The notes under the pieces: generated by a model
What the model saw: the letters and a program-made list of their open reading frames with translations, nothing else
Databases searched by the model: none
What the model was told of the DNA's origin: nothing
Part shown: piece after piece, positions 1 to 54,576 of the stretch
How positions within the stretch are numbered: position 1 is the first letter of the stretch
Layout of the letters: every line of letters starts with the position of its first letter
NCBI RefSeq assembly: GCF_005116675.2
Contig: NZ_CP050699.1
Span: 310,001-374,000 of the forward strand
Origin: Desulfosediminicola ganghwensis
GTDB lineage: Bacteria; Desulfobacterota; Desulfobulbia; Desulfobulbales; Desulfocapsaceae
Direction: 5' to 3'
Length of the DNA stretch: 64,000 bases
Translations under genes and position numbers: made by a program

Positions 1-17
1 CACCGTGTTGTCAGTTG

Positions 18-14946: not shown

Positions 14947-15076
14947 ACTTATCCTCCCATGAAGTAATTATTTTCCCGGCCCGGCTTATAATGACCTTCA
15001 TAACCCGGACCGAAAATCACCTGTAGAGAGTGAATGTATCGCGCCTGACGTAATGAATGTAGGGGAGGTATCGGGG

Positions 15077-15108
15077 TATTATCGGGTAAAAAAACATACC
15101 CGATAATA
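15077..15108. terminator. Perfect 12-bp inverted repeat between two flavoprotein genes
   Basis: TATTATCGGGTA (15077-15088) and TACCCGATAATA (15097-15108) form a perfect stem with an 8-base A-rich loop. It sits between the stop of the upstream flavoprotein gene (15146) and the start of the downstream one (14946). No strong U tract follows on the minus strand, so it may be an attenuator or operator rather than a full terminator. Confidence 0.55.
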
Positions 15109-15145
15109 GTTTGTATTTGTTGTTTTTACCCAGCAGCAAAGGCTC

Positions 15146-38113: not shown

Positions 38114-38704
38114 CTAGGTGATTTGCAGTCTTTTATAGATTTCAGGAAGCTTTCTGCGGGTCTTCTCCTTGACTTCTTCAAAAAGATTTCGTCCATGACT
38201 ATCCATTGCCACCGTCAGGGGGCCGAAATCTTTTACCCGAAATTTATAGAGTGCCTCCGGGTGGAGATGCTCCCAATAGACCTCTTCAACTTCCTCGACC
38301 TGCTGGGTCTCGAGTGCTGCAGAACCACCAACGATTGCCAGGTATACAGCTGCATGTTCCTGCATTGCCTTCAAGCTGCCTTCATAGAGGCCACCTTTAC
38401 CAATTATCGCCTTCACACCATATTGACCGATCAGGTCCGGGGAAAAACGGTCCATTCGAGTGCTCGTTGTCGTTCCGACACATATCTTTTCCCATTTGTC
38501 CCCAACTTTTTTCAAACTTGGAGCTGTGTGAATACAGGGCATTCCCGCAAGACTGACCGGCGGTTCATGATTCTGGTCAAACATGTAGATCTGCGTCAAA
38601 TCCCTAATGCCAAAAAGCGTCCCGTCAAAATAGACGATATCTCCTGCTTGAAGCTTTCTGATCGCTTCATCTGTGAATGGGGTTGTTAGGTGGTGAGTTG
38701 CCAT
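38114..38704 (-). CDS. Class I fumarate hydratase, beta subunit
   Basis: 196 aa. Corresponds to the C-terminal domain of class I fumarases (DIVYFDGTLFGIRDLTQIYM, KICVGTTTSTRMDRFSPDLI, AIIGKGGLYEGSL). Converts fumarate and malate reversibly together with the alpha subunit encoded 20 bp upstream. AAGGAGGG precedes ATG 38704. Last gene of the sdh-bc-fum operon. Confidence 0.93.
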   Translation of the reverse strand: MATHHLTTPFTDEAIRKLQAGDIVYFDGTLFGIRDLTQIYMFDQNHEPPVSLAGMPCIHTAPSLKKVGDKWEKICVGTTTSTRMDRFSPDLIGQYGVKAIIGKGGLYEGSLKAMQEHAAVYLAIVGGSAALETQQVEEVEEVYWEHLHPEALYKFRVKDFGPLTVAMDSHGRNLFEEVKEKTRRKLPEIYKRLQIT

Positions 38705-38724: not shown

Positions 38725-39606
38725 TTAATATCCGTACTCAACATTGCCGTTTGGATAAATCTTTGCACGAGCCCGCCGGGCTGGCCAACACTGGGTATTG
38801 ATGGCAATCGGGTTTTGGGTAATATGGGTATAAGCAGTCTCGATATGAACGCCGAGTGTGGTGATCTTGCCTCCGAGTCCCATTGGGCCCCGATCCATTG
38901 AATTGATGGCCTCTTCAAGCTCTTCTTCCATCTCTGCAATTTGCGGATCCGGATGCCTCTGGCCGACGGGGCGAGCAATTGCCTCTTTGGCAAGTTTCAT
39001 CACCAGGTCCGCCGTACCACCGATACCAATTCCAATGATCCCTGGGGGGCACGGGTTTGCTCCGGTCTCAAAAACGGTATCAATTACGAACTTCTTGAGC
39101 GCGGATATCCCATGCGCTGGGTAAAACATCTTCATCGTGCTCATGTTTTCCGACCCAGAACCTTTTGGGATCATGAGGATATCGAGATAATCGTTTTCCC
39201 CATCAAAGTCATAGTGCACAACGGGTAGCCCCTCGCCAACGGAGGTTTGTGGATTGATCCTTGTCAGTGGGTGGGTGGAGCTTCCCCTGAATGGAAACTC
39301 CCGGGTTGCACGCTCGGCTCCCTTCGCCAACCGTTCTTTTATCTGGTAGCCGTTCCAGGGAAATTGGGAACCTACCTTAACCATATAGATAGGGAGACCG
39401 GTATCCTGACAAATCAGTGTCTTGTTTTTGTCCGCGACCTCAATCGTCTTGAAGATGGCTTTGAAGATCTCTTTAGCCGTCGGGTTTGTTTCCCGGTCAT
39501 GGGCCTTTTTCAGGGCCTCCCGCACATCGGGCGGCAAATCGCATAACGCCCGTATATAAAGCTCCTTAGCGACATCTTCGACAATTTGATAATCAAGATC
39601 AGCCAT
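38725..39606 (-). CDS. Class I fumarate hydratase, alpha subunit
   Basis: 293 aa. Carries the three cysteines expected to hold the catalytic [4Fe-4S] cluster: CQDTGLPIYM, NPCPPGIIGIGIGG and NTQCWPARRARAK. Oxygen-sensitive fumarase of anaerobes. ATG 39606 follows TTGGAGGTACACCC; an in-frame start 11 codons upstream is excluded by that site. It follows the cytochrome b-c fusion gene by 91 bp and precedes the beta subunit. Confidence 0.94.
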   Translation of the reverse strand: MADLDYQIVEDVAKELYIRALCDLPPDVREALKKAHDRETNPTAKEIFKAIFKTIEVADKNKTLICQDTGLPIYMVKVGSQFPWNGYQIKERLAKGAERATREFPFRGSSTHPLTRINPQTSVGEGLPVVHYDFDGENDYLDILMIPKGSGSENMSTMKMFYPAHGISALKKFVIDTVFETGANPCPPGIIGIGIGGTADLVMKLAKEAIARPVGQRHPDPQIAEMEEELEEAINSMDRGPMGLGGKITTLGVHIETAYTHITQNPIAINTQCWPARRARAKIYPNGNVEYGY

Positions 39607-39697
39607 GGGTGTACCTCCAATAATGTTAATCCAGCTCAACTCTAGAATGTGATGTAACGCTTTCTCGTGGAACCATCGTTATGCCGAGCTTCGGTAA

Positions 39698-41155
39698 TCA
39701 ATGTCCCGTAACCAGTGAAACACTCTCTTTTGCTTTTCCCTGCTCGAGTACTTCGCGTTTTTCAATCAGGCGGCCAGCATTGTCCCGGAAGTCAAGAGCC
39801 AGCATGAATTCGGCCAAAGCATCTAATTCATCTTGTTTCATTGGGTATTTCGGCATGATGGAAAAGGAGCTCTGAGCCTGTGGATCCTTGACATACGCTG
39901 CGAGATACTCCTTGGTTCTTCCCTTGGGATTTAACCTTGCCATATCAGGACCAACCCTCCGACCGCCTTCACCGCTGGTCTGATGGCAATAGGCACAATC
40001 CTGTTTCACATATATCTGCAACCCTGCGTTTTCGGTTTCGGTAAGATTTCGCTCAGGTAAGAGGATCTCCCCGCCGTAATCCCGAGCAGCGGCGAATGCG
40101 GTTATCGTGAGATAGACAATGACAACAGCGCTGCTCACCCCGACCGCAGTCGCGAGGGGACGTTTTGCCATCCCAACATGTTTGGATTTTTCAATAAATG
40201 GCAGCCCCAGAAGGACAACTGCACAGAGTGTTGGAATACCCAGGCTTCCGATAACCTCCGTTGATCCGGAAAAAAACGTCAGAAGTTGGAATATCCACAT
40301 GAAATACCATTCCGGACGGGGAAGGTAGCTCTCGTCGACGGTGCCGACTATGCCTTCTTTGGGAATATCAGCAAAGATCGATAAATAAATAATGGCTCCA
40401 AATACTGCGATAAATACCAGGGTGCTTCGTCCGCAATGTTCTGGGTAAAAACGATAGAGCTTGGTTGTGGTGGCATGGTTGGCTGCAGCGTCAAGCTCAC
40501 CCTTGGCTTTTGGCTTGTGATCACTTACGCCGTGTAACCTCACCAGATATATATGCGCGGCAATCAGAACAATCATAACCGTCGGCAGCACGAGCATGTG
40601 AATTGCGTAAAACCTGGTGATGGTAAATCCGGAGACCTGGCCACCGAGAATCAGGCTGGTAATCCCCTCCCCGACAACCGGGATATCTCCGGGTATTGCC
40701 GTTGCGACAACAGTCGCCCAGTATGCCTTCTGATCCCACGGCAGCAGATAACCGGTAAAGCCGAGACCGAGTGTCGCAAACAGCAAAAACACACCGACAA
40801 TCCAGGTCAACTCACGCGGCGCCTTGAATGAACCATTAAAAAACACGGCATAAAGATGAAGGCAAACTGCCAGAACCATTGCTCCGGCACCCCAGTGATG
40901 AATCCCCCGAAGAATATCCCCCATGGGCACATCATTCATGATATACTCTATCGACTGATAGGCCTTGTCAGGAGAAGGGCTGTAATACATAGCCAAAAAC
41001 ATCCCGGTGACCGCCAGCAAAACGAACAGCATCACGCAAAGACTGCCAAGAGTCACAGACCACCCAAGATTGGTGGGGAGTTTTTTGTAAAGAAAAGGTT
41101 TTAGGTGAACATCCCAACCAATGCGCTGCAAGAGTACTTTCTGAAAATCTGTCAT
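39698..41155 (-). CDS. Cytochrome b fused to C-terminal cytochrome c (bc-type complex)
   Basis: 485 aa. Residues 1-360 are a full-length cytochrome b with 8 or so TM helices: low- and high-potential heme ligands H86/H100 and H186/H201, the quinol-site motif PEWY at 281-284, and the b6-like turn TGYLLPWDQKAYWA. After the last helix a cytochrome c domain follows with CAYCH (387-391) and a candidate axial Met at 434 (SIMPKYP). So the b subunit and the c1-like subunit are one chain. Its Rieske partner is fused to SdhB in the gene just upstream; only 2 bp separate that stop from this ATG, implying coupled translation. Oxidises menaquinol and passes electrons to periplasmic cytochromes. Confidence 0.93.
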   Translation of the reverse strand: MTDFQKVLLQRIGWDVHLKPFLYKKLPTNLGWSVTLGSLCVMLFVLLAVTGMFLAMYYSPSPDKAYQSIEYIMNDVPMGDILRGIHHWGAGAMVLAVCLHLYAVFFNGSFKAPRELTWIVGVFLLFATLGLGFTGYLLPWDQKAYWATVVATAIPGDIPVVGEGITSLILGGQVSGFTITRFYAIHMLVLPTVMIVLIAAHIYLVRLHGVSDHKPKAKGELDAAANHATTTKLYRFYPEHCGRSTLVFIAVFGAIIYLSIFADIPKEGIVGTVDESYLPRPEWYFMWIFQLLTFFSGSTEVIGSLGIPTLCAVVLLGLPFIEKSKHVGMAKRPLATAVGVSSAVVIVYLTITAFAAARDYGGEILLPERNLTETENAGLQIYVKQDCAYCHQTSGEGGRRVGPDMARLNPKGRTKEYLAAYVKDPQAQSSFSIMPKYPMKQDELDALAEFMLALDFRDNAGRLIEKREVLEQGKAKESVSLVTGH

Positions 41156-41157
41156 GA

Positions 41158-42474
41158 TTACACCATTGCTATTAGTATATTTCCGTTCTCAACCCGATGT
41201 TCGAGTGTAGCGAGCGGCCGAGGGGGCGGACCTGCTTTTACCGATCCATCGAGTTCAAAAGCTCCTCCATGACAGGCACACAGAAAGAGTTTCTGTCGAG
41301 CGTCCCAATGAACTGAGCAACCTAAATGAGTGCAGCGGCTGTCATACACTACGACCTTGTCTTCTTCCTGGTTGCGGTAGATCATTACCGGCTTTACCCG
41401 TTCCTGGTTGTAGAAACCGACATTCTCAACATATCGAAGGTTTACCGTTGTCACGTCGCCTTCCTTGAGATCACCAAGCTTCCCCGCCGGCACCCATACC
41501 GGCTCCTTCTTGTCCAAGGACTGGCCCACAAATGTTGAAGCAAGAACGCCACCTACCGTGAGGGCGGAAACTGCACCGAGACCAACCGTGACCTTGGCGA
41601 GAAAATTCCTCCGACCGGTATCAAGGTTTTCATCACAACCACATTGACCAGCCTCCCCTGAAGCATGCGCCGCACATGGTTCAGCAGCGACATTCTCCCC
41701 GTGCGCCGGCGCTGAGGCAGCTGCTTCAGCTTTACTTTTTGCTTTTGCTCGGAAGGGCTCCTTGATTGCCAGGCGTTGGATAAACTTGATTGATCTGGTA
41801 CAGCTGATCTCCTTCGGGCACACTTCAGTACAGTTGAACTCAGTTCGGCAGTTGTAGCATGACTGTAGGACACGATCCAGCCGCTCTTCGTACAGCGCAT
41901 CCCGACTGTCCAGCAACAGCGTGAACGCACGGTTCAGCGGGGCGGGGCCGGCATAGCCATCGTGATAATTGACCATTGTGCAGCTCGAAACACAGCAGCC
42001 GCAAGCGATACATTCAGTTGAAAAACCGATTGCCCTCCGCTCTATGGAGTCCGGTCTGATAATAGCCGGCTCCTCACTCATATCCCTGGGTTCGAAAAAC
42101 GGTAAACACTCCTCGTATTTTTCAAAAAACGGCCCCATATCAACAACTAGGTCCTTAACCACCGGGAAATGATTCAACGGCCTGATGGTCAGATCTTTAG
42201 ATTCAGCAAAATCCGACACATTGGTTTTACAGGCCAGCCCTTCCCGGCCATTTATGACTACAGCGCACGATCCGCACATATTGACCCTGCATGCATAGCG
42301 AAAGGCCAGGGTCGAATCCTGCTCCCTCTGGATTCGCAGCAATACATCAAGGATCGTGGTATTGGTCTCGTCCTCTATGTGGAGATCGTAGTGGTCATAA
42401 TGACCGTCCCCTCCCACCGTTGGATCATACCTGTATATTGCAACTTTTCTTGTGTTCCCTTGTTCTTGAGCCAT
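41158..42474 (-). CDS. SdhB iron-sulfur subunit fused to Rieske protein
   Basis: 438 aa in one uninterrupted frame. Residues 1-240 are a complete succinate dehydrogenase/fumarate reductase iron-sulfur subunit: [2Fe-2S] Cys 62/67/70/82, [4Fe-4S] CIACGCC at 155-161 with C165, and third-cluster C209, C215, C219 (CRTEFNCTEVCP). Residues 241-286 are an Ala-rich linker with extra Cys. TGRRNFLAKV at 286-295 is a twin-arginine-like motif before one TM helix (~293-316). Residues 330-438 are a Rieske domain with CTHLGC (381-386) and CACHGG (399-404). Predicted topology: SdhB in the cytoplasm, Rieske head in the periplasm. This physically links complex II to the bc complex encoded next. Preceded by sdhC (30 bp). 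Confidence 0.95.
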   Translation of the reverse strand: MAQEQGNTRKVAIYRYDPTVGGDGHYDHYDLHIEDETNTTILDVLLRIQREQDSTLAFRYACRVNMCGSCAVVINGREGLACKTNVSDFAESKDLTIRPLNHFPVVKDLVVDMGPFFEKYEECLPFFEPRDMSEEPAIIRPDSIERRAIGFSTECIACGCCVSSCTMVNYHDGYAGPAPLNRAFTLLLDSRDALYEERLDRVLQSCYNCRTEFNCTEVCPKEISCTRSIKFIQRLAIKEPFRAKAKSKAEAAASAPAHGENVAAEPCAAHASGEAGQCGCDENLDTGRRNFLAKVTVGLGAVSALTVGGVLASTFVGQSLDKKEPVWVPAGKLGDLKEGDVTTVNLRYVENVGFYNQERVKPVMIYRNQEEDKVVVYDSRCTHLGCSVHWDARQKLFLCACHGGAFELDGSVKAGPPPRPLATLEHRVENGNILIAMV

Positions 42475-42504: not shown

Positions 42505-42843
42505 TTACATAGCCCGCCAGATCAGTCCGGCAATAACAAGCCCAAGAGCGGTAAGCCCCCAGATCAAAGCACGTTGATACTTGACATTGACCAGGTTGAA
42601 GTCGAGGAGGATTACCCGCAACCCAAGTGTTGCATGGAAGGTTACCGCCAGCAGCAGCAGAAACTGCAGCCACGGTTTATAGGTAAGTGTGACATGCAGG
42701 CCGAGTAGAAAGATGATCGCAACAGCCGTGATACGCTGCCACATCCAGGCCCACATCCCGACAAACATGTTACGATGCCTGTTCGGATCAAGTTCACCCC
42801 ATTGAAGCGGTTTACGATAATTGTTTACATTTTGCTGTTCCAT
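42505..42843 (-). CDS. sdhC: Succinate dehydrogenase cytochrome b membrane anchor
   Basis: 112 aa with three TM helices (ITAVAIIFLLGLHVTL; LQFLLLLAVTFHATLGLRVI; ALIWGLTALGLVIAGLIW). H50 and H70 are positioned as heme b ligands. Sequence HRNMFVGMWAWMWQRITAVA is a quinone-site type segment. Only one anchor gene is present where some complexes have two; a partner sdhD is not seen, so the anchor may be a homodimer or the Rieske-linked TM helix may contribute. 48 bp after sdhA. Confidence 0.87.
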   Translation of the reverse strand: MEQQNVNNYRKPLQWGELDPNRHRNMFVGMWAWMWQRITAVAIIFLLGLHVTLTYKPWLQFLLLLAVTFHATLGLRVILLDFNLVNVKYQRALIWGLTALGLVIAGLIWRAM

Positions 42844-42891: not shown

Positions 42892-44619
42892 TTATTTTTT
42901 GTGATTTCTGCATTCCTCGGCGGATTTATATTTAAAATCAACCGGTTCAGAATGAAGCGTAGGTAAACCATTGTCACCAAGGGTCAGGTATGTGTTGAAG
43001 AGGCCGATCTCATCATTTTGATCCGGGAAGTCACTTCTGTAATGAGCAGCTCTTGATTCTTTGCGTGCAAGTGCACTGGCAACAACCATGTCTGAGACAT
43101 CGATCATGTTCGTCAAATCGATGTAGGTGTTCCAAACCATGTTGTAGTTGTCCCCGCCAGTCACTTTGACTTTTTTAGACTCTTCTTTCAGGAAGTTGAT
43201 TTCGCCTATTGCTGATTCCATGTCCTGACCGTTACGAACAACACCGACCTTTTTCCAGTTACATTCCTGCAGCTGCCTGCGGAGCTGGAATACATCTTCC
43301 GTGGAGCCGGATCGCCCGAATGGTTCGGTGAATTTTTTCTTGAGTTCATCCACCAGGCCAGGTGCGGTCTCAGGAGGGGTAGAGGAGTTGGTCCTAAAGA
43401 ACCTGGCCAGGGATTTACCAGCCTGCCGGCCATAGACGGCAGATTCACAAATACCGTTTCCGCCGAGACGGTTGCCGCCATGAACGCCGCCGGAATCCTC
43501 GCCGGCAACGAATAAGCGTCGGAGTGAGGTATGACAATTTTTATCAATGTCGGCACCACCCATAACAAAGTGGGCGGTCGGGGAAATGGGTACTCTCTCC
43601 CGTGCGAGATCGTAACCAAACTGCCGGCAGCGAGCTGCCATGCCAGGAAAATTCTTAAGGACAAATTCCGCACCCATATGTGCGGCATCGATCTGGATGC
43701 CACCCTCCACGCAGGCCCTTCCCGCCAACATTTCAAGGAATGCTGAACGACTCACCACATCTCGTGTTGCACGTTCTTCTGCAGGGTCGTACTTATGCAT
43801 GTAGCGCTTTCCCTCCCCGTTATAGAGGTGCGCCCCGGCTCCACGCAATCCTTCCTCGAGAAGTGAACCAGCCACTACGCTTCCGGGGATTATCAGTCCC
43901 GTAGGATGAAATTGAATCATTTCCATATCCCGCAATCGGACACCGGCACGGTAAAGCATCGCCAGGCCATCTACAGATTTTTCCGGGCCGGGAGCATGGA
44001 AACTATACTGGGTAGGACCGCCACCGGTTGCCACCAGTGTTGCGGCAGCCTCAATAACGACGAATCGTCCCTGTTTCATATCCAGCATCAAAGCCCCTGT
44101 GACCTCATCCCCTGAATCGTCAGTAAGAAGGTCCACAGCTCTGCATTCCTCGAGAACTTGGATATCCCGCTTCATGATCTGCTCAGTCGTGCGACTGATC
44201 ATTTCAATACCTGTCAAGTCTCCCTTGTGCACCGTCCTATCGAACGACTGCCCCGCAAACGGTTTCTGATGGATGGTTCCGTCAGGGTTGCGATCGAAAA
44301 AGCACCCAAATCGTGTTTCCATCTCTTTTATGGTTGGAGTTGCTTCTTCAACGAGAGTCCTGGCAAGATCCTGATCATTGACATACTGACCACCCTTGAG
44401 GGTATCCATCAGGTGCTTTTCGTGGGAATCTGAATCGTTTAAAACGACATTGAGGCCGCCCTGAACCATTCGGCTGCAGCCCCCTTTCCCCTTGAGCGCC
44501 TTCGTTACGATTGTGATTTTAAGATCAGGATTAGCGTCATACGCATAGAGAGCTGCTAATTGCCCCGCAGCACCCATCCCGAGAATTAGAATATCTGTTT
44601 TTAAAGTTTCGTGAGACAT
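42892..44619 (-). CDS. sdhA: Succinate dehydrogenase/fumarate reductase flavoprotein subunit
   Basis: 575 aa. FAD fold ILILGMGAAGQLAALYAYDA at the N-terminus, substrate/catalytic regions FHPTGLI, EGLRGAGAHLYN, PTAHFVMGGADID and GNRLGGNGICES. In most SdhA/FrdA proteins a His in the sequence (S)H(T/S)xxAQGG binds FAD covalently; here the aligned segment is GGCSRMVQGG, with C48 where the His would be, so FAD is likely non-covalent or held differently. First gene of the operon; AGGAGTG lies before ATG 44619 and a sigma-54 promoter lies 43-57 bp upstream. Confidence 0.93.
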   Translation of the reverse strand: MSHETLKTDILILGMGAAGQLAALYAYDANPDLKITIVTKALKGKGGCSRMVQGGLNVVLNDSDSHEKHLMDTLKGGQYVNDQDLARTLVEEATPTIKEMETRFGCFFDRNPDGTIHQKPFAGQSFDRTVHKGDLTGIEMISRTTEQIMKRDIQVLEECRAVDLLTDDSGDEVTGALMLDMKQGRFVVIEAAATLVATGGGPTQYSFHAPGPEKSVDGLAMLYRAGVRLRDMEMIQFHPTGLIIPGSVVAGSLLEEGLRGAGAHLYNGEGKRYMHKYDPAEERATRDVVSRSAFLEMLAGRACVEGGIQIDAAHMGAEFVLKNFPGMAARCRQFGYDLARERVPISPTAHFVMGGADIDKNCHTSLRRLFVAGEDSGGVHGGNRLGGNGICESAVYGRQAGKSLARFFRTNSSTPPETAPGLVDELKKKFTEPFGRSGSTEDVFQLRRQLQECNWKKVGVVRNGQDMESAIGEINFLKEESKKVKVTGGDNYNMVWNTYIDLTNMIDVSDMVVASALARKESRAAHYRSDFPDQNDEIGLFNTYLTLGDNGLPTLHSEPVDFKYKSAEECRNHKK

Positions 44620-44661
44620 AGCGTCACTCCTGAGGTTAAATTGGAAATTACAACAGATAAA

Positions 44662-44676
44662 GCAACCTCTATGCCA
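44662..44676 (-). promoter_or_regulatory. Sigma-54 promoter of the sdh-bc-fum operon
   Basis: Minus strand TGGCATAGAGGTTGC: GG and GC doublets separated by exactly 10 bases as required for -24/-12 elements. Predicted transcription start about 44650, giving a ~30-base leader to the sdhA ATG. A sigma-54 activator gene is divergently encoded next to it. Confidence 0.7.
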
Positions 44677-44937: not shown

Positions 44938-46473
44938 ATGCGCTGGGACTTAGCAACACGTCATAAGATTCTCTTGGAAGTCAACAATGCGGTAATCACC
45001 AACTATTCCATTGATGATTTTTTCGGATCACTCTCAACCGAGCTGAGAAAACATTTTCACTACGATCGATTATCCATTTTCATTTATGATAACGAAGCTG
45101 ATTCACTCACTTATTTAACGTTGGCTGATGGCGTTCAGCCTAAAGGTTTCGAAAGAAATGTTCGTCCGCTCGCCAGCGGTGCAGTTGCAAGAATGGTGAT
45201 TCAGTCCAAACAGAGGATAACCATCAAAGAACTATCTCGTTACACCGACCAACAGTCAATTCTTGCGATGGTCAATGCCGGCCTCGTATCAACGATGGCA
45301 TTTCCCCTGATTGTGCGTAATCGAATTCTTGGAACACTACATATGTCGTTTAAGAAAGTTCCGAGAGACTTTTCTGAGCTTGCTGATATCCTCACCGAGG
45401 TTGCTAATCAAGTGGCAATTGCCGTAGGCAATATGGTTACAATCTCTGAATTGGTTGAGGAGAAACAGAACCTTGAAAGAGAAAAGCATTTTCTGATAAA
45501 CAATGCAGACGATTATCAACCTGCAAACTTCCTGTATACATCACCGGCCATGAGTGATCTCATGCAGCTGGCTCGAAGCGTTGCTGAAATCGATGCACCC
45601 TTGTTGATAACCGGCGAGACTGGAACAGGAAAAGACTACGTTGCCCGCTATATCCATTCAATAAGTCACCGAAGGGATCGTCTCTTTGTCAAGGTAAATT
45701 GTCCGGCCCTTACCTCGTCACTTTTTGAGAGTGAACTTTTCGGCCATGTGAAAGGTGCGTTCACTGGTGCGGACACTCCTCGAGTAGGGCGATTTGAGAT
45801 GGCCGATAAGGGGATAATTTTCCTGGATGAAATTGCTGAGCTCCCGATAGACCTTCAAGCAAAACTCCTACAAGTACTGCAAGAACACCAGATTGAACGT
45901 GTGGGCGACAACAGGGTGATCAAGACTGATTTTAGACTGATTGCCGCTACCAATCGAGATCTGTCAGAAGCCATCGAACAGAGAAAATTTCGACAAGATC
46001 TTTATTATCGCCTGAATATTCTTCAAATCCATATTCCGCCCCTTCGCGAACGGCGGGAGGATATACCCTATTTGATAGAAAAATTGAATGAGGCTGAGTC
46101 ATTGTCCCTTAACAGGCCAGCGCCAAAATACACACCTAGAGTTATCGATTTCCTGTCAGAATACCAATGGCCTGGAAACGTCAGGGAACTTAAAAACCTC
46201 GTAAAACGTTTTGTCATACTAAAACCGGGAGAGGTGTTACCCCTACACGATATCCAAAACCTCGTGGGCACTGTTGGTCAGCGTACCCCTCTATATAAAG
46301 GAAATAATGGATCGATGGTTAAGTCAGAGCAATTTGCTATTGAACAGGCTCTTATAGAAAGCAAAGGCATGGTTGGTGGTCCCAATGGAGCTGCAAAGAT
46401 TCTGGGTGTTCCAAAATCTACCCTGCAATACCGTATTAAAAAATACGGACTCCGCCCGGGAAATTATGCTTAG
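44938..46473 (+). CDS. GAF-domain sigma-54 activator (NorR/FhlA-like)
   Basis: 511 aa. N-terminal GAF domain (residues ~20-165, FSELADILTEVANQVAIAVG at its end) as signal input; AAA+ core with Walker A GETGTGKD (~226), the sigma-54 contacting loop GAFTGA, Walker B IIFLDEIAELP and sensor RLIAATNRDL; C-terminal Fis-type helix-turn-helix (GAAKILGVPKSTLQYRIKKY). Encoded divergently from the sdh operon, whose promoter is sigma-54-type, so it is the obvious candidate regulator. The start has a poor Shine-Dalgarno. The GAF domain lacks any motif that tells the ligand. Confidence 0.93.
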   Translation: MRWDLATRHKILLEVNNAVITNYSIDDFFGSLSTELRKHFHYDRLSIFIYDNEADSLTYLTLADGVQPKGFERNVRPLASGAVARMVIQSKQRITIKELSRYTDQQSILAMVNAGLVSTMAFPLIVRNRILGTLHMSFKKVPRDFSELADILTEVANQVAIAVGNMVTISELVEEKQNLEREKHFLINNADDYQPANFLYTSPAMSDLMQLARSVAEIDAPLLITGETGTGKDYVARYIHSISHRRDRLFVKVNCPALTSSLFESELFGHVKGAFTGADTPRVGRFEMADKGIIFLDEIAELPIDLQAKLLQVLQEHQIERVGDNRVIKTDFRLIAATNRDLSEAIEQRKFRQDLYYRLNILQIHIPPLRERREDIPYLIEKLNEAESLSLNRPAPKYTPRVIDFLSEYQWPGNVRELKNLVKRFVILKPGEVLPLHDIQNLVGTVGQRTPLYKGNNGSMVKSEQFAIEQALIESKGMVGGPNGAAKILGVPKSTLQYRIKKYGLRPGNYA

Positions 46474-47733: not shown

Positions 47734-48010
47734 AAGAAGGGACACCTATTTCTGGAATTGTCATTATTTACCTTAAAGGTTGCCCAGTCTCTTCGTTCAT
47801 GCCGACATGTATATATCAGTGAGATATTCAATGCCGGCAGGGATGAAAGCCTGGTATAGTCATCATTTCATTACAACATGATTTCAAATATGGTAAAAGT
47901 TGGTTGCCGGCACCAATAAATCTTTATGATTTCAGGTCAATTTTCGACATTTGTTTTTGTCGGATGGACTCAAAAATCATTTGACTTCACCTCAATACAT
48001 TGTGGTTGCT

Positions 48011-49750
48011 ATGCTTTCTTCTAATGATATTAAATCCATATCTCTAAGTTTAGATTCATCGCATAATGGAATCATAGTCATAAACCGTGATGGAATAATT
48101 CTGATTTACAACAAGTCAGCAAAAAGAATATTTAATGACGGTGAAGCTGATTTTGAAGGCCGAAAGATTAAGGATATTCGACCTGAAGCTTGGGATGATC
48201 TTGAAGCTATTTTTAAGACAGGACAACCCCAGATAGGTAAAAAAATAACCCTTGATAGAGCAACTATTATAACAAATCGTACTCCCATCGTTGTTGAAGA
48301 CAACGTTGTCGGTGTCATAACTGTGTTCCAGGATGTATCAGAACACGAAGCTATTATTTCTCAACTTTCTAATTACCAGAAATTACACAAAGAATTAGAG
48401 GTTATTTTTGAGTCATCTTACGATGGCCTGTTTGTCTCTGATGGGAGTGCCAATTGCCTTAGTGTCAACAGATCTTATGAAGAGATTACCGGCACTAGAC
48501 GTGAGAATTTGATAGGTAAGAATACGAAGTCGCTCGTTAAAGATAAGATCGTTGACATTTCCGTTAGCTTAGAAGTCCTAAAACAGAAAAAACAAATTAC
48601 ATTGTTGCAGGTAATCAATCAGAAGAGGGAGGTGATCGTTACCGGGACACCAGTATGGGATGACGACGAAAATATCTCTAAGGTGGTGGTCAACGTTCGT
48701 GATATTACCGAACTCAGTGAGCTCAAGAGACAGCTTGCGGAAACTCGTAAAAAGACGGACTATTACTACCATACACTTCAGGAATATCAGGATACCGAGC
48801 ATGCGTTGCAGGTTATGGTTGCCAACAGCATGTCAATGCTCAAGATTTTAAGAAAGTCTATTAAAGCAGCGAAGTTTGAAGTGCTGGTTCTCTTGACTGG
48901 AGAGTCTGGAGTTGGAAAAAGCATGCTGGCCAAGTTGATACACAAAATGAGCCCGCGAAAGGACCAACCCTTTGTTAAAATTAACTGTGGAGCAATCCCT
49001 CCCAATCTTATGGAAAGTGAACTCTTTGGCTACGAAAAGGGTGCATTTACTGGTGCTTCGTCGACAGGAAAGATGGGGCTTATTGGAGCAGCCCACAAAG
49101 GAACCGTTTTCTTAGACGAAATTGCTGAGCTTCCCCTTGAGATGCAAGTTAAGCTGCTTGAAGTTATTGAAGATAAACAGTTTAAACCAGTCGGGGCAAC
49201 CCGAACGACTACAGTCGACGTCAGGATTATAGCCGCCACTAATCGAAATCTTTTTGAGCAAGTTCAAAAAGGTCTTTTCCGGGAAGACCTTTATTACAGG
49301 CTCAATGTTGTACCAATAGTTATCCCGCCTTTACGGCAGCGACGAGATGATGTTCCGGCTTTGTGTGAAAATTTTCTTGAGAAAATCAATCGTAAAATGG
49401 AGGGAAAAAAGCGCTTTCACCCGATTTTAATTGAATTGTTAAGACAATATGACTTTCCAGGCAATGTCAGGGAATTGTTTAATATTATTGAACGGATGAC
49501 CGTCTTCAGTGAGGGAGAACTCCTGACCCCCGATGACCTGCCCTCTGAAATTAGAAAAAATTCTACAATTGATTCCAATGAGATTGTAGAGATATCTCCC
49601 CTAAAGCAAGCTCTGACGAGTTATGAAAAAAAGCTCCTGAAGAAGGTCCTCAAAGAGAGCGCATCTCTTCAACAAGCTGCAGATATGTTACAAATTCACC
49701 CCACAACCCTATCAAGGAAACTGACAAAGCTTAACCTTGAGAAACCTTAA
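48011..49750 (+). CDS. PAS-domain sigma-54 activator
   Basis: 579 aa from ATG 48011; a TTG at 47951 would add 20 residues. Two PAS domains (SSHNGIIVINRDGIILIYNK; FESSYDGLFVSDGSANCLSV), a short coiled coil, then the AAA+ domain: Walker A GESGVGKS (~297), GAFTGA loop, Walker B TVFLDEIAELP, sensor RIIAATNRNL and arginine-finger region; C-terminal Fis-type helix-turn-helix (LQQAADMLQIHPTTLSRKL). Type typical of catabolic regulators in anaerobes. It precedes the TRAP/alcohol dehydrogenase operon in the same direction, whose leader has a sigma-54 promoter and palindromic upstream sites, so it most likely controls that operon. Confidence 0.92.
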   Translation: MLSSNDIKSISLSLDSSHNGIIVINRDGIILIYNKSAKRIFNDGEADFEGRKIKDIRPEAWDDLEAIFKTGQPQIGKKITLDRATIITNRTPIVVEDNVVGVITVFQDVSEHEAIISQLSNYQKLHKELEVIFESSYDGLFVSDGSANCLSVNRSYEEITGTRRENLIGKNTKSLVKDKIVDISVSLEVLKQKKQITLLQVINQKREVIVTGTPVWDDDENISKVVVNVRDITELSELKRQLAETRKKTDYYYHTLQEYQDTEHALQVMVANSMSMLKILRKSIKAAKFEVLVLLTGESGVGKSMLAKLIHKMSPRKDQPFVKINCGAIPPNLMESELFGYEKGAFTGASSTGKMGLIGAAHKGTVFLDEIAELPLEMQVKLLEVIEDKQFKPVGATRTTTVDVRIIAATNRNLFEQVQKGLFREDLYYRLNVVPIVIPPLRQRRDDVPALCENFLEKINRKMEGKKRFHPILIELLRQYDFPGNVRELFNIIERMTVFSEGELLTPDDLPSEIRKNSTIDSNEIVEISPLKQALTSYEKKLLKKVLKESASLQQAADMLQIHPTTLSRKLTKLNLEKP

Positions 49751-49763
49751 AGAATTCAAGCAC

Positions 49764-49795
49764 CTGCAACATTGCAGTTATCTGCAACATTGCAG
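49764..49795. promoter_or_regulatory. Twin palindromic activator sites
   Basis: CTGCAACATTGCAG at 49764-49777 and again at 49782-49795, 18 bp apart centre to centre. A third copy, CTGCATCACTGCAG, is at 49863-49876. They lie ~170-190 and ~95 bp upstream of the -12 element, as expected for binding of a hexamer-forming sigma-54 activator. Confidence 0.7.
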
Positions 49796-49951
49796 AATAA
49801 TGATTATGACAGCAATATTCTGAGCTTTTTGTCAGAAATCTCTCCTTACCCCCTCTAACATTCTGCATCACTGCAGCTTATCTCGAAGCTACCACCTTCC
49901 ATCAATCTCTATTTTGCCACCACTACAGGCACTTAGCATTGCCCATTCCAA

Positions 49952-49967
49952 TGGCATAGATAGTGCA
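49952..49967 (+). promoter_or_regulatory. Sigma-54 promoter of the TRAP/ADH operon
   Basis: TGGCATAGATAGTGCA with GG (49953-49954) and GC (49965-49966) separated by 10 bases; strikingly like the sdhA promoter (TGGCATAGA...). Predicted start near 49978, giving a ~180-base leader. Confidence 0.65.
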
Positions 49968-49996
49968 CCTATGCAGCGGAGAGCAGGATTAGTCAA

Positions 49997-50074
49997 ATGG
50001 TCATGACCATCTTCGATGGAACTTTTGACCGACCAGTATTTTCAATGCTGTTATTGATCCTCAAAAATACTGGT
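49997..50074 (+). promoter_or_regulatory. Inverted repeats in the TRAP operon leader
   Basis: ATGGTCATGACCAT at 49997-50010 is a perfect palindrome just after the predicted start. ACCAGTATTTT (50032-50042) pairs with AAAATACTGGT (50064-50074) around a 21-base loop. They could be an operator and a leader hairpin. Confidence 0.4.
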
Positions 50075-50158
50075 TGGCAACTTGAAGCCACTACGTCTTA
50101 GATGGGATTGATCTTTCCCCCCCATTGATCCTATTGGGAACATGTAAAGGAGAGCATC

Positions 50159-51379
50159 ATGAAAAAACGAGATCAAAAGATGGTAAACAACCTGGCTCGA
50201 CGCGATTTTTTACGCTTATGTGCGATATATGGCACAACTGCCGCACTGGGGGGGGTATTAGCAACAGCTGCTACTGCAGGAGAAAAAGAACTCAAGCAGC
50301 AAATCTCCATTCAGGCTGAGCAAGAAGCAAAGAAGGCTGCAGTTGCCAAACACACTATGATCTTAGCGGTCGATGGGGTTGGTAATCGCTGGCCTGATGG
50401 AGTGGTGTGTACTTCGACCATGTGGAACATCGGGGCATGGAAACTTAAGACTAATATAGAAAACCATTCCAAGGGCGCCATCTATGTCAAGATAGTCGAA
50501 GGCGGCGCACTGGGCGGGCAGGTCAAGGCAGCCAGGAAAGTCCAACAGGGCATCCTCCAGGCTTGTACTGCAAGCACCCAGAATATGGCCGCTTTTGCCC
50601 CGGTTTGGAATGTTACAGACATTCCATATGCTATCGGTCCCGTAGAAAATTATTGGAAGCTTCTCTATTCCAAAGAAGTTAACGATTCACTCCGTAAAAA
50701 GAGCATGGAGCAAGGAGTAATGAACCTTGCCACCTTCCCACAAACACGATGGCTTGAGTTGAAAATGGGGCTTTCCAATGAAATTCGTTTTCCCGAACAG
50801 CTCAAGGGTATGAAGATTCGTGTGACTGGCTCAAAGCTTGAGCAAGCAATTTTTGACATCTTACCATCCAGCCCAACCCCAATTGCCTGGGGAGAAGTAT
50901 ATACAGCCATGAAAGAAGGGGCTATTGATGGCATCCACGTCGGTCCCGCTTCCGTAGCCGATGCAGGCATTCACGAGGTTGTCGGCCAGCTAGTAAATAC
51001 TGAATTTATGTATAATGCCGACACAGTTTGGGTGAATACCAGATGGTTTAAAAAGTTGTCAGCCGTCTTACAAGAAGCTGTGTTAGAAGCTTCATATCAG
51101 ACCCAGCTCTTCATCGAAGGAATTTACGAGCCGCTCCATGCCATGCAAGCGGGGCTTCGACCGAATTCGCCCTCCGACGCCATCTGGAAAAAAGCCGGAA
51201 CTAAGCAGGTCATTTTAACCGCTACGGAAAGAACTGCCTGGTATGATTATCTTTCTTACGAGAATAATAAAGATCGTTTTGATCCGATGGTGAAGAGATT
51301 CGGGAAAACAGAATTTGAAATCGTGCAACAGGTTGCACAAGCAGGTGACGTAGAAAGACAACGATGGTGGAAATCGTAA
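50159..51379 (+). CDS. dctP: TRAP transporter substrate-binding protein, DctP type
   Basis: 406 aa. N-terminal twin-arginine signal (ARRDFLRLCAIYGTTAALGG), then a periplasmic DctP-like fold; GSKLEQAIFDILPSSPTPIA and AWGEVYTAMKEGAIDGIHVG are the family's ligand-binding core, including the Arg region IRVTGSK. Binds an organic acid and delivers it to DctQM. Ribosome site GGAGAG before ATG. First gene of an operon with dctQ, dctM and an alcohol dehydrogenase. Confidence 0.92.
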   Translation: MKKRDQKMVNNLARRDFLRLCAIYGTTAALGGVLATAATAGEKELKQQISIQAEQEAKKAAVAKHTMILAVDGVGNRWPDGVVCTSTMWNIGAWKLKTNIENHSKGAIYVKIVEGGALGGQVKAARKVQQGILQACTASTQNMAAFAPVWNVTDIPYAIGPVENYWKLLYSKEVNDSLRKKSMEQGVMNLATFPQTRWLELKMGLSNEIRFPEQLKGMKIRVTGSKLEQAIFDILPSSPTPIAWGEVYTAMKEGAIDGIHVGPASVADAGIHEVVGQLVNTEFMYNADTVWVNTRWFKKLSAVLQEAVLEASYQTQLFIEGIYEPLHAMQAGLRPNSPSDAIWKKAGTKQVILTATERTAWYDYLSYENNKDRFDPMVKRFGKTEFEIVQQVAQAGDVERQRWWKS

Positions 51380-51497
51380 CAAGAAGTCGCATGGATTGTG
51401 AGTGGGGTAGCTACTTATAATTATACGCCTCACTCATTTATAACTAGCTGCAACAGGTGCTTAATCGTGTGTTACACATGGGCTTGGAGGTCTAGTT

Positions 51498-52016
51498 TTG
51501 GGAATACTTTGGAAATCAATTAAATGGCTCGACGAGAATGTCGAGTACTGGCTTTGTTTTGTCTTCTATTCATACATGGCTGGAATAATTGTTGTGGAGG
51601 TCTGTCGCCGATACTTCTTCAATGCCAGTAGTTCCTGGGGAGAGGAAACAGCAATTTATGCCTTCATATGGATGACATACTTAGCTGCTGCCCGCGGTGT
51701 TCGAGGCCGCAAGCACCTTTCAGTAGAAGCTTTACGTCACCGGATGACCAGGACACAAAAATACTGGGCATTTGTACTTAGCGATGTCTCTTTTCTTATT
51801 TTAGCCGTTACGGTTGCCTATTATTCGCTCATCCCAGTCACCAATAGTATTCAGTATGGCCACACAATGTTTGGGATAGATCTCCCTCTGGCACTCGCCA
51901 CCTCTTCAATTACTGCAGGTTGGATTCTAATCGCGATCCGGGTTGTCCAGCGCTTTTTGGATACCCTGCGACGGTTTCGCATGGGCCTGCCGCTTGCGGA
52001 AGAACAGGTGTTCTAA
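51498..52016 (+). CDS. dctQ: TRAP transporter small permease, DctQ type
   Basis: 172 aa with four TM helices (WLCFVFYSYMAGIIVVEV first; SIQYGHTMFGIDLPLALATS late). Contains SSWGEETAIYAFIWMTYLAA, the usual DctQ signature. Start is TTG 51498, 7 bases after GGAGG. Confidence 0.88.
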   Translation: MGILWKSIKWLDENVEYWLCFVFYSYMAGIIVVEVCRRYFFNASSSWGEETAIYAFIWMTYLAAARGVRGRKHLSVEALRHRMTRTQKYWAFVLSDVSFLILAVTVAYYSLIPVTNSIQYGHTMFGIDLPLALATSSITAGWILIAIRVVQRFLDTLRRFRMGLPLAEEQVF

Positions 52017-52072
52017 TCGTTACGATTATCGGTGTCTTTACCCTTAAGTGTTAACTGTGAGAGGAGAATTAC

Positions 52073-53350
52073 GTGGAAACCTTAGCATTAGTTAGTCTAC
52101 TGATTACAGCCGTGCTGTTGTTGCTAGGTGTTGAAATACTGGTTTGCCTTGGTGGGGGAGCAATTTTAATGACGCTCATGACTGGGGCTTTTCCTATTGA
52201 AAATGTTGGTTTTACTGCATTCAGTTCGATCAATATCTTTCCCTTACTTGCCATGCCCCTTTATATCCTGACGGGTGATTTAGTGTCGGCTGGCGGCATT
52301 TCGCACATGTTTGTCGTGCTTGCCAAGTCTCTGGTCGGTTGGGTGAGAGGGGGCTTAGCTGTCACCACTATGGTAGCCGCCGAAGGTTTCGCAGCGATTA
52401 GTGGCTCCAATTCTGCCACCGTTGCTGCCATGGGCAGAATAATGGTCCCGGAACTGAAAGAGGATGGTTACCCTGAGGACTTCGCTGCCGGCACAATAGC
52501 TTGTTGCGGTACGATCGGGATAATAACTCCCCCCAGCATCGTTTTTATCCTCTATGGTGTTACTGCTGGTACCTCGATTGGTGACTTATTCCTTGGTGGC
52601 GTCCTCCCAGGTCTAATATTGGTAACTGCCATGTCAACTGCCGCCCTGACAGTTTGCTGGCGTCGTGGATATGGTAGTACCTTCCCATTCGATCTCGGGA
52701 CAGCGCTCCGGGCGGCCTGGAAAGCCAAACTGGCTTTCGGTGCTATTGCAATCATCTTGGGCGGTATATATGGGGGGTTATTTACTCCAACGGAGGCGGC
52801 TGGTATCTCAGTTTCTTATTGCCTTTTGGCCGGACTTTTTATCACCAGAGAGATTAAAGTAAAACAGCTCCCCGCAATCATGGCTCAAAGTTCCGGTGTA
52901 AATGGAATGATCGCACCGATTATTGCAATGGCCATGATCTTTTCTGAACTCCTGGCTGTAACCGGGCTCCCCCAAGCCGGAGTGAGTTTTCTTCTGGGAT
53001 TTTCAGAAAACCCGACCGCTGTGATGGGGTTGGTCCTGCTGATACTCCTCATCGCAGGGTGCGTTATGGAGGCCACTCCAAACATTCTTCTCCTGACCCC
53101 GCTTCTGGTTCCAGTTGCAAATAGCCTCGGGTATCATCCAGTCCACTTTGGTGTGATTATGGTAGTTACCCTCGCCATAGGATTTGTGACTCCCCCACTT
53201 GGATTAAATCTCTTCGTTGCAAGTAGCGTTACCGGAGTTTCCTTTACTCGTATTGCCGTAAGAGCCATTCCATATATCATCGCCTTGGTAACAGGTCTTT
53301 TGATTATATGGCAAGTCCCTTATCTCTCCCTGATCTTTTTAGAACATTGA
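52073..53350 (+). CDS. dctM: TRAP transporter large permease, DctM type
   Basis: 425 aa, about twelve TM helices. DctM signatures: NIFPLLAMPLYILTGDLVSA, AISGSNSATVAAMGRIMVPE and GTIGIITPPSIVFILYG. Start is GTG 52073 with GAGGAG upstream. Together with DctP and DctQ completes a Na+-coupled uptake system. Confidence 0.92.
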   Translation: METLALVSLLITAVLLLLGVEILVCLGGGAILMTLMTGAFPIENVGFTAFSSINIFPLLAMPLYILTGDLVSAGGISHMFVVLAKSLVGWVRGGLAVTTMVAAEGFAAISGSNSATVAAMGRIMVPELKEDGYPEDFAAGTIACCGTIGIITPPSIVFILYGVTAGTSIGDLFLGGVLPGLILVTAMSTAALTVCWRRGYGSTFPFDLGTALRAAWKAKLAFGAIAIILGGIYGGLFTPTEAAGISVSYCLLAGLFITREIKVKQLPAIMAQSSGVNGMIAPIIAMAMIFSELLAVTGLPQAGVSFLLGFSENPTAVMGLVLLILLIAGCVMEATPNILLLTPLLVPVANSLGYHPVHFGVIMVVTLAIGFVTPPLGLNLFVASSVTGVSFTRIAVRAIPYIIALVTGLLIIWQVPYLSLIFLEH

Positions 53351-53409
53351 TCAAGATGTAGAGCAAAATGTGACTTATAATAGACAATTAGACACGGAGA
53401 ATTGCTTTA

Positions 53410-54576
53410 ATGGTGAATCAAAACTTTGAACTGTATTTTCCCACCAAGATGATGTTTGGTGCAGGTAAATCCAAGGCTGCTGGTGAAATCATTCATTCCC
53501 TGAGAGGTCGAAACGTTCTGGTGGTTACAGATCCAGGCGTGGCTGGGGCGAACCTGCTTGACGGAATCCTCTCATCTCTCAAAAAACAAGGCCTGTCATA
53601 TAATGTCTTCTCTGATGTTGGACACGAAGCCACGTTAAACAAGGTCCAGGAAGGATTGGATGTGGTGAAGGCTAAAGGGAGCGATATTCTTCTTAGTGTC
53701 GGTGGTGGTAGTGTAATGGACACGGCCAAGGGTATCGGTTGCCTGGCGAATAATCCTGGTAACCTGGCAGATTACGAAGGGCCGGAAAAATTCAAGAATC
53801 CACCTCTGCCCACCGTAGCTGTGCCCACCACAGCTGGAAGCGGGAGCGAATTAAGTTTTGGTGCCGTAATCTCGGATACGGAGAGAAAATACAAGTTTTC
53901 TTTCAGGAGTTCGATGCAGATACCTAAGGTGGCGATTCTTGATCCTGAACTGTTGCGGACTACACCGCCGAAACTTGCCGCTGCCTCCGGAATGGATGCC
54001 CTTTCCCATGCTCTGGAGGCCTATGTATCAAAATGGTCGAACTTCATGACTGACGCTTACTGCAGGCAAAACTTTCAACTGGTTGGGAAATATTTGAGGC
54101 GTTTTGTTGCTGACCCATCGGACATCGAAGCAGCATCCGGCATGCTTCTAGCGAGTTCGATGGGTTCCATGGCCTTCAATGTAGCAAGACTGGGGCTTGT
54201 ACACGGTATTGGTCATCCCGTCGGGGCCAATTTTCACTTGCCCCATGGAGTAGCATGCGCGCTGCTAATGCCGCATGTAATGCAGTTCAATCTTAGTTCA
54301 TGCCCTGACAAATTTGCGGATATTGCTGCTGGGCTGGAAGGAGCCGTGAGCGATAGTACACCCGAGCAGATGGCCCAATCTGCGGTTGATGCGGTTTTAA
54401 GGTTGACGGATGATCTTGGTATCAAGGCAGATTTCAGTTCATACGATATTACTGAAGAGTTATTGTCACGTCTTGCTGATGAAACACTGAGTTCTGGCAT
54501 GCAATTGACAAACCCTCGCGATCCCGACAAAAATGATATTTTGGATATCCTGCGTAAATTTTTCGAGACAAACTAG
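53410..54576 (+). CDS. Iron-containing (group III) alcohol dehydrogenase
   Basis: 388 aa. NAD(P)-binding GGGSVMDTAKGIG, metal ligands in MDALSHALEAY and HGIGHPVGANFHLPHG, consistent with an Fe-dependent alcohol/polyol/lactaldehyde-type dehydrogenase. Fourth gene behind the TRAP transporter (59 bp gap), so it likely oxidises or reduces the imported substrate or its product. In some anaerobes such enzymes act on sulfoacetaldehyde or 1,2-/1,3-diols; the substrate here is not determinable from sequence. Confidence 0.9.
   Translation: MVNQNFELYFPTKMMFGAGKSKAAGEIIHSLRGRNVLVVTDPGVAGANLLDGILSSLKKQGLSYNVFSDVGHEATLNKVQEGLDVVKAKGSDILLSVGGGSVMDTAKGIGCLANNPGNLADYEGPEKFKNPPLPTVAVPTTAGSGSELSFGAVISDTERKYKFSFRSSMQIPKVAILDPELLRTTPPKLAAASGMDALSHALEAYVSKWSNFMTDAYCRQNFQLVGKYLRRFVADPSDIEAASGMLLASSMGSMAFNVARLGLVHGIGHPVGANFHLPHGVACALLMPHVMQFNLSSCPDKFADIAAGLEGAVSDSTPEQMAQSAVDAVLRLTDDLGIKADFSSYDITEELLSRLADETLSSGMQLTNPRDPDKNDILDILRKFFETN

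Follow-up and report, generated by a model that had tools for sequence, protein, structure and literature searches.

The window, a stretch of 64,000 nucleotides from the sulfur-cycling bacterium Desulfosediminicola ganghwensis, carries on its minus strand an operon in the order sdhA, sdhC, a fused sdhB-Rieske gene, a cytochrome b-c gene, and the genes for the alpha and beta parts of a fumarase-type hydro-lyase (Table 1). As read from the DNA, SdhB and a Rieske protein form a single chain, adjoined by sdhA, a three-helix sdhC and a gene for cytochrome b fused to cytochrome c. The sequence-only reading of this stretch had proposed a complete SdhB and a complete Rieske domain in one open frame. 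This was borne out: the frame contains no internal stop, and both the Pfam domains and all cluster motifs are present in the 438 residues.

Table 1. Features of the operon and its surroundings (window positions unless residues are given).
Feature	Position	Strand	Remarks
Fumarase-type hydro-lyase (class I), beta part	38114..38704	-	Pfam Fumerase_C, 109 bits
Fumarase-type hydro-lyase (class I), alpha part	38725..39639	-	Pfam Fumerase, 310 bits
Cytochrome b with C-terminal c-type heme domain	39698..41155	-	Pfam Cytochrome_B, Cytochrom_B_C, Cytochrom_C
sdhB-Rieske fusion gene	41158..42474	-	ATG start, 438 codons plus stop, 438 aa
Fusion: SdhB part	residues about 1-240		Pfam, motifs, AlphaFold2 model
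Fusion: linker	residues about 241-286		
Fusion: Tat motif GRRNFL	residues 287-292		RR at 288-289
Fusion: TM helix, hydrophobic core	residues 295-313		
Fusion: Rieske domain	residues about 321-438		
SdhC	42505..42843	-	112 aa, 3 TM helices, H50 and H70; Pfam Sdh_cyt 33.5 bits (cut-off 25.8)
SdhA-type flavoprotein	42892..44619	-	GKGGCSRMVQGG replaces the covalent-FAD His stretch; LLEEGLRG at the place of the substrate Thr
Sigma-54 -24/-12-like site	44661..44676	-	TGGCATAGAGGTTGCT, one mismatch; upstream of sdhA, 42 nt from its ATG
Divergent activator, likely regulator	44938..46473	+	GAF and sigma-54-interaction domains (Pfam)

Three Pfam domains were recognised in the fused chain: Fer2_3 (residues 9–117, 110.7 bits, cut-off 27), Fer4_8 (residues 152–222, 32.6 bits, cut-off 27) and Rieske PF00355 (residues 326–423, 46.5 bits, cut-off 20.3). 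The SdhB part passes the SdhB/FrdB family profile TIGR00384 (201.8 bits, cut-off 88) and scores slightly below the cut-off of the narrower SdhB model NF004616 (225.5 against 228 bits); the Rieske subfamily models TIGR01416 and NF045928 score below their cut-offs for the fusion. No single model among those of Pfam and NCBIfam spans both halves. The SdhB ligand motifs were scored as those for the [2Fe-2S], [4Fe-4S] and [3Fe-4S] clusters; in the window fusion the first is C62-x4-C67-x2-C70-x11-C82, the second CIACGCCVSSC starting at residue 155, and the third CRTEFNCTEVCP starting at residue 209. The Rieske box runs from CTHLGC at residue 381 through CACHGG.

The AlphaFold2 model of the fusion (31 rows) has a mean pLDDT of 83.6 and a pTM of 0.56. 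The two domains are mostly confident and a single helix is formed by residues 285–320; the linker is of low confidence at residues 259–281 (pLDDT below 50). In Foldseek comparisons, the SdhB half of the model resembles the SdhB chains of solved complex II and the Rieske half resembles Rieske chains. Among the 57 chains matched, no solved structure contains both parts, the best stretch of each covering one part only. A match spanning both parts, the only one among the 50 listed of 694, was to 9gy6_M, and was disregarded on account of its rmsd of 23.8 and TM-score of about 0.2. Sequence and model together support the two-sided topology proposed earlier, with SdhB in the cytoplasm and the Rieske head in the periplasm. 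Over residues 1 to about 240 the fusion has the fold and the three cluster motifs of SdhB/FrdB (TIGR00384; PDB 1nek_B, 1zoy_B), but its chain extends about 198 residues further, through a TM helix into a Rieske head. It has an arginine (CRTEFNC) at what we take to be the position of the quinone-site histidine of E. coli SdhB, whereas that histidine is kept in L069 and in the four fused proteins of the second type described below. With the Rieske proteins of bc and b6f complexes (PF00355; PDB 8hn2, 1nyk, 2e74) it shares the fold, the CTHLGC...CACHG ligands, the Tat motif and one TM helix.

A search with the whole protein for relatives aligned over both parts, as the sequence-only reading had suggested, yielded 18 fused proteins in 18 genomes, spread over six family codes within one phylum; this total takes the genome G835 of the family search to be the same as L006, because their positions agree. 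Fourteen are of the window type (type 1) and four belong to a second type (type 2). Full-length, stop-free fused matches were found in 3 of 93 genomes of the window's family, in 8 of 395 genomes of a sample of the phylum (the window's genome included), and in 2/63, 7/199, 4/155, 1/17 and 1/1 genomes of five classes, which overlap with the 395-genome sample. No additional fused protein was obtained when a type-2 protein was used as the query over the same 395 genomes. The whole-genome searches covered one phylum; their E-value limits, 1e-44 to 1e-68, are strict enough that diverged fusions may be missed. A scan of contigs, whose reach is limited to close relatives, yielded one locus, L006 (Desulfocapsaceae bacterium). 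The fusion is thus dispensable, given its patchy distribution (3/93, 7/199 and 2/63 genomes) and its absence from most genomes. Where it occurs, it is well preserved: the SdhB ligand motifs, the RR motif and the Rieske box are kept in all 18 proteins, and in 15 of them the TM helix of the Rieske part is above the hydropathy cut-off (L069, L071 and L107 fall below). The linker, counted from CPK to RR, varies from 45 to 88 residues and is in frame throughout. Between the window and L006, dN was 0.095 for the SdhB part, 0.57 for the linker and 0.26 for the Rieske part, with synonymous sites near saturation.

The earlier claim of a tie to the bc complex was upheld by the gene order, in which cytochrome b directly follows the fusion gene at all 18 fused loci, that of the window among them; the attached heme c motif was found in 17/18, the contig of L072 stopping inside cytochrome b. 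The window cytochrome b has seven hydrophobic segments, both Pfam halves, two pairs of heme histidines (by eye), PEWY at residue 281 and CAYCH at residue 387. The features of a bc complex are therefore all present: the four heme histidines, the PEWY of the Qo site and the c-type heme, together with the Rieske box and its partner cytochrome b gene. Next to sdhA, SdhC appears to be the only small anchor. No second anchor gene is present in the window operon, and the tight packing of the genes leaves no room for one. BLAST found one small anchor in each bc-linked operon, where outside the window a diverged second may escape, and two anchors in the loci L077, L078 and L080, which lack bc genes. 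H70 of SdhC is conserved in 19/19 sequences, and at least 90% of the aligned rows have H50. The SdhC fold matches SdhC/SdhD chains with Z of about 7–10 and unrelated helix bundles likewise, so that the fold alone is no proof of kinship with SdhC; the Pfam match does support it. Other complex IIs have more than this one three-helix anchor. With one such anchor only, the placing of the heme and the quinone path is guesswork.

Eight of the 14 window-type loci, the window included, have a sigma-54-like site with 0–1 mismatch close to the start of sdhA; in the other six the best match has 2–4 mismatches, and the site was scored as missing. None was found in the three type-2 loci with upstream DNA. 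Over the whole window, 33 such sites were counted against 39 expected, which is not above chance, so only its position and its recurrence in relatives speak for the site upstream of sdhA. The region 47951–54576 holds a second sigma-54 activator, with PAS domains, the TRAP transporter genes DctP and DctM, and an iron-containing alcohol dehydrogenase; the activator and the TRAP genes fall within 47951–53350. Elsewhere, the genome contains other SdhA- and SdhB-type genes and a separate cytochrome b-Rieske pair (L119). It also encodes one heme-copper oxidase subunit I, a possible end acceptor for the chain.

The flavoprotein of the operon leaves the nature of the substrate less certain. Window-type SdhA (22 sequences: 14 from fused loci, five from unfused loci with bc genes and three from loci without) has GKGGCSRMVQGG and no covalent-FAD histidine in 22/22 cases, the window included; RSH, with the histidine, was present in all 11 other SdhA in which the stretch was found. 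The place of the substrate threonine is taken by glutamate in all 22 and by threonine or serine in the others, and the window SdhA has LLEEGLRG where the active-site Thr-Glu pair would be expected. Four of the five E. coli substrate sites, presumably His242, Thr254, Arg286, His354 and Arg399 of E. coli SdhA, align by eye. The best NCBIfam profile was that of TfrA, the flavoprotein of thiol:fumarate reductase, at 521.8 bits and under its cut-off of 718. According to the passages available of PMC5773532, variants of complex II without the covalent FAD ligand kept fumarate reduction and lost succinate oxidation. Since both the histidine and the substrate threonine are missing from window-type SdhA, succinate as its substrate is not certain: the invariant cysteine might bind FAD, a different dicarboxylate might serve as substrate, or the enzyme might run in the opposite direction. 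Succinate oxidation is safer in type 2, where the covalent-FAD histidine was found in 3/3 SdhA in which the stretch is present, and where the locus L071 adjoins genes for succinyl-CoA ligase and 2-oxoacid:ferredoxin oxidoreductase, which is the TCA setting of a succinate dehydrogenase.

It is conceivable, if rather unlikely, that the window-type complex reduces fumarate or acts on some other dicarboxylate, menaquinol then supplying electrons to fumarate as well as, via Qo, to cytochrome c. The missing histidine with its published effect and the TfrA match agree with this direction; however, a bc complex, like a c-type heme, has its role in quinol oxidation, and the presence of the histidine in type 2, with the TCA neighbours of L071, also argues against it. 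The surroundings of the type-1 operons likewise fit the oxidation of dicarboxylates. Fumarase genes were found in 13 of 14 type-1 loci, the contig of the fourteenth ending, TRAP transporter genes in all three loci examined with Pfam (the window, L065 and L067), and L067 and L066 have nearby genes for an Ldh_2 and an RraA-like protein, respectively. In one lineage, represented by L067 (2282–8339) and L068 (5496–8338), genes for an extra SdhA-like flavoprotein and for an Fe-S/FAD protein separate cytochrome b from fumarase; the L067 insertion also holds DctM and NMT1_3 transporter genes, the latter TAXI-like on reading. Two adjacent minus-strand ORFs at 13420–16588 of the window (genome 323408–326531) match a profile of fumarate reductase flavoproteins weakly.

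The two fused types differ in gene order, which is sdhA-sdhC-[sdhB-Rieske]-[cytb-c] in type 1 and sdhA-[sdhB-Rieske]-[cytb-c]-sdhC in type 2 (the contig of L072 ends within cytb). Unfused relatives occur in three arrangements: Rieske-[cytb-c]-sdhA-sdhC-sdhB in five loci (L073–L076 and L079), sdhC-sdhA-sdhB-Rieske-cytb in full in four loci (L115–L118), and sdhA-sdhB-Rieske-cytb in L144, L146 and L152. In the second arrangement sdhB and Rieske overlap by 4 nt (L115, L117 and L118) or 11 nt (L116), and no heme c motif was found on the cytochrome b of these four loci. Rieske and cytochrome b ORFs were present in all 13 unfused loci of one class-level search. In L144 sdhB and Rieske are in frame and 12 nt apart; in L152 (1492–2691) the sdhB stop at 2218–2220 is immediately followed, in the same frame, by the Rieske ATG at 2221, so that the loss of one stop codon would make a fusion.

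The SdhB tree rejected a single clade of both fused types (lnL lower by 22.95, p-AU 0.002), and the SdhA tree joined the first unfused group and a bc-less group to type 1 (support 100), apart from type 2. On these grounds, the fusion probably arose twice, onto different SdhB lineages and perhaps with related bc modules. A single fused clade was not rejected by cytochrome b (p-AU 0.44) or Rieske (p-AU 0.56), so that the case for two origins rests on SdhA and SdhB. SdhB also rejected a clade of all bc-linked SdhB (p-AU 0.0019) and one of F2 plus U2 (p-AU 0.020), though SdhA joins the latter (support 92), and in the Rieske tree the 14 window-type rows do not form one clade. Long branches were flagged in every tree. 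Alternatively, the fusion may have arisen once and the SdhAB part been exchanged afterwards. The first SdhB tree was built from 69 of 74 rows and the cytochrome b and Rieske trees from 43 of 48 each, the same five duplicates being left out. The second set used 58 of 74 rows for SdhB and 54 of 71 for SdhA, without the duplicates L090, L091, L093, L097, L100, L054, L055 and L060, the diverged L016–L021, L061 and L064, and one SdhA of less than 350 aa.

The Tat-like motif was confirmed to be internal, as had been noted earlier, its arginine pair lying behind a folded Fe-S domain and not, as in bc and b6f Rieske proteins, at the protein's own N-terminus. The unfused neighbouring Rieske proteins examined have the same kind of Tat motif at their N-terminus, so the internal motif is most simply an old N-terminal signal inside a longer chain. 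In the accessible parts of PMC5449189 and PMC13186574, actinobacterial QcrA is described as having an internal Tat signal that moves a C-terminal Rieske domain by a dual Sec-Tat route, which is a precedent for the topology proposed for the fusion. In QcrA the signal comes after two Sec-inserted helices, in the fusion after a 240-residue cytoplasmic Fe-S domain. The mechanism set out below takes the chain to stay whole after export. We know of no Tat precedent with a folded Fe-S domain ahead of an internal signal.

Cleavage of the linker after Tat export would leave ordinary, separate complexes II and III and make the fusion a convenience of translation or assembly. The low model confidence, fast evolution and variable length of the linker would allow this, but visual inspection of nine aligned fused proteins showed no conserved cleavage motif, the RR motif is retained throughout and the TM helix behind it in most of the proteins, and the probable double origin suggests that the tether itself is useful; we regard cleavage as improbable. 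An internal start giving a separate Rieske protein was considered and rejected. The window's linker has no in-frame ATG, GTG or TTG, and none of the in-frame starts in the other fused linkers (18 loci examined) has AGGA, GGAG or GAGG 5–16 nt upstream, so no candidate with a Shine-Dalgarno-like stretch was present in any of the 18, which argues against separate translation of the Rieske part. A missed stop or frameshift joining two genes, for which one could point to unfused neighbours in the same gene order, has a negligible probability: the frame is open here, where the sequence-only reading had looked to the linker for such an error, the same open frame occurs in other genomes of the family at 71–75% identity to the window, and the 18 fused proteins have linkers of differing length that are all in frame.

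Mycobacterial Sdh1 (class F complex II, PDB 7D6V) also combines complex II with a Rieske-type cluster. The sequence-only reading had set it apart as a different architecture, rightly so, as the parts consulted of PMC10238741 place the cluster inside a single six-helix membrane subunit; in the window the Rieske head is of the periplasmic type, is attached to SdhB and has a bc partner, and SdhC has three helices and no cysteine. Complex II likewise lies beside complex III in the supercomplexes I-II-III2-IV2 and CII2CIII2CIV2 (passages of PMC10238741; title of PDB 9fq7), and the same 2023 review, in the passages seen, describes complex II as conspicuously absent from structures of respirasomes (PMC10238741). 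The fusion differs in that its link, known here from the genes, is covalent. In complex II-containing supercomplexes the partners are separate polypeptides. No SdhB-Rieske fusion was found in the open-access literature searched, including the passages available of PMC2700814, PMC5317091, PMC10238741, PMC5773532, PMC10308238, PMC5449189 and PMC13186574, a body of text to which most subscription papers do not belong. The parts are known; a covalent II-III link is absent from the open literature covered and from the solved structures matched.

The architecture of the fusion is real, conserved and unusual, and from it we infer a mechanism. The operon probably encodes one obligate complex II-III enzyme that would carry electrons from a C4 dicarboxylate to a periplasmic cytochrome c. 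By analogy with the families concerned, SdhA and the SdhB half would sit on SdhC at the cytoplasmic side and the Rieske head in the periplasm, with one helix between them and the linker running to the old Tat signal. SdhB would fold first; Tat would then export the folded Rieske domain, and the signal helix would remain as an anchor. Docking of the Rieske head on cytochrome b would give two tethered SdhABC units per bc dimer. The substrate is most likely succinate, oxidised to fumarate, which the neighbouring fumarase would remove. Electrons would pass from FAD through the three Fe-S clusters and the heme or hemes in SdhC to menaquinone, and the menaquinol would be oxidised nearby at Qo, the Rieske cluster and the attached heme c delivering electrons to a periplasmic cytochrome c. 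The tether would fix the stoichiometry of both complexes and shorten the quinone path, and a sigma-54 activator probably switches on many of the window-type operons as part of dicarboxylate catabolism. All 18 fused heads have HGGxF (HGGAF in the window), with neither serine nor tyrosine beside the cluster, whereas among seven stand-alone Rieske proteins of the window's family HGSxF was found in six and HGGxF in one. Rieske mutants without this serine and tyrosine have a lowered potential, and the HGGxF of the fused heads thus points to a lower potential, which would suit a menaquinone chain.

A further-reaching proposal is offered tentatively. Complexes II and III may form one indivisible dicarboxylate:cytochrome c oxidoreductase. 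Quinone would then pass from SdhC to Qo without leaving the particle, and the role of the missing second anchor would fall to the Rieske helix or to cytochrome b; in the window type, the flavoprotein would in addition have an altered active site and an FAD that is either free or bound other than through histidine, perhaps through cysteine.

Complexes II and III normally float apart, and there is an old dispute over the channelling of quinone in supercomplexes and over the usual exclusion of complex II from them. A natural covalent link between the two would make the question of quinone channelling directly testable, in relatives that differ by one stop. The fusion also suggests a Tat signal that lies behind a folded cytoplasmic Fe-S domain, and it draws attention to a subfamily of complex II flavoproteins without the histidine deemed necessary for the oxidation of succinate.
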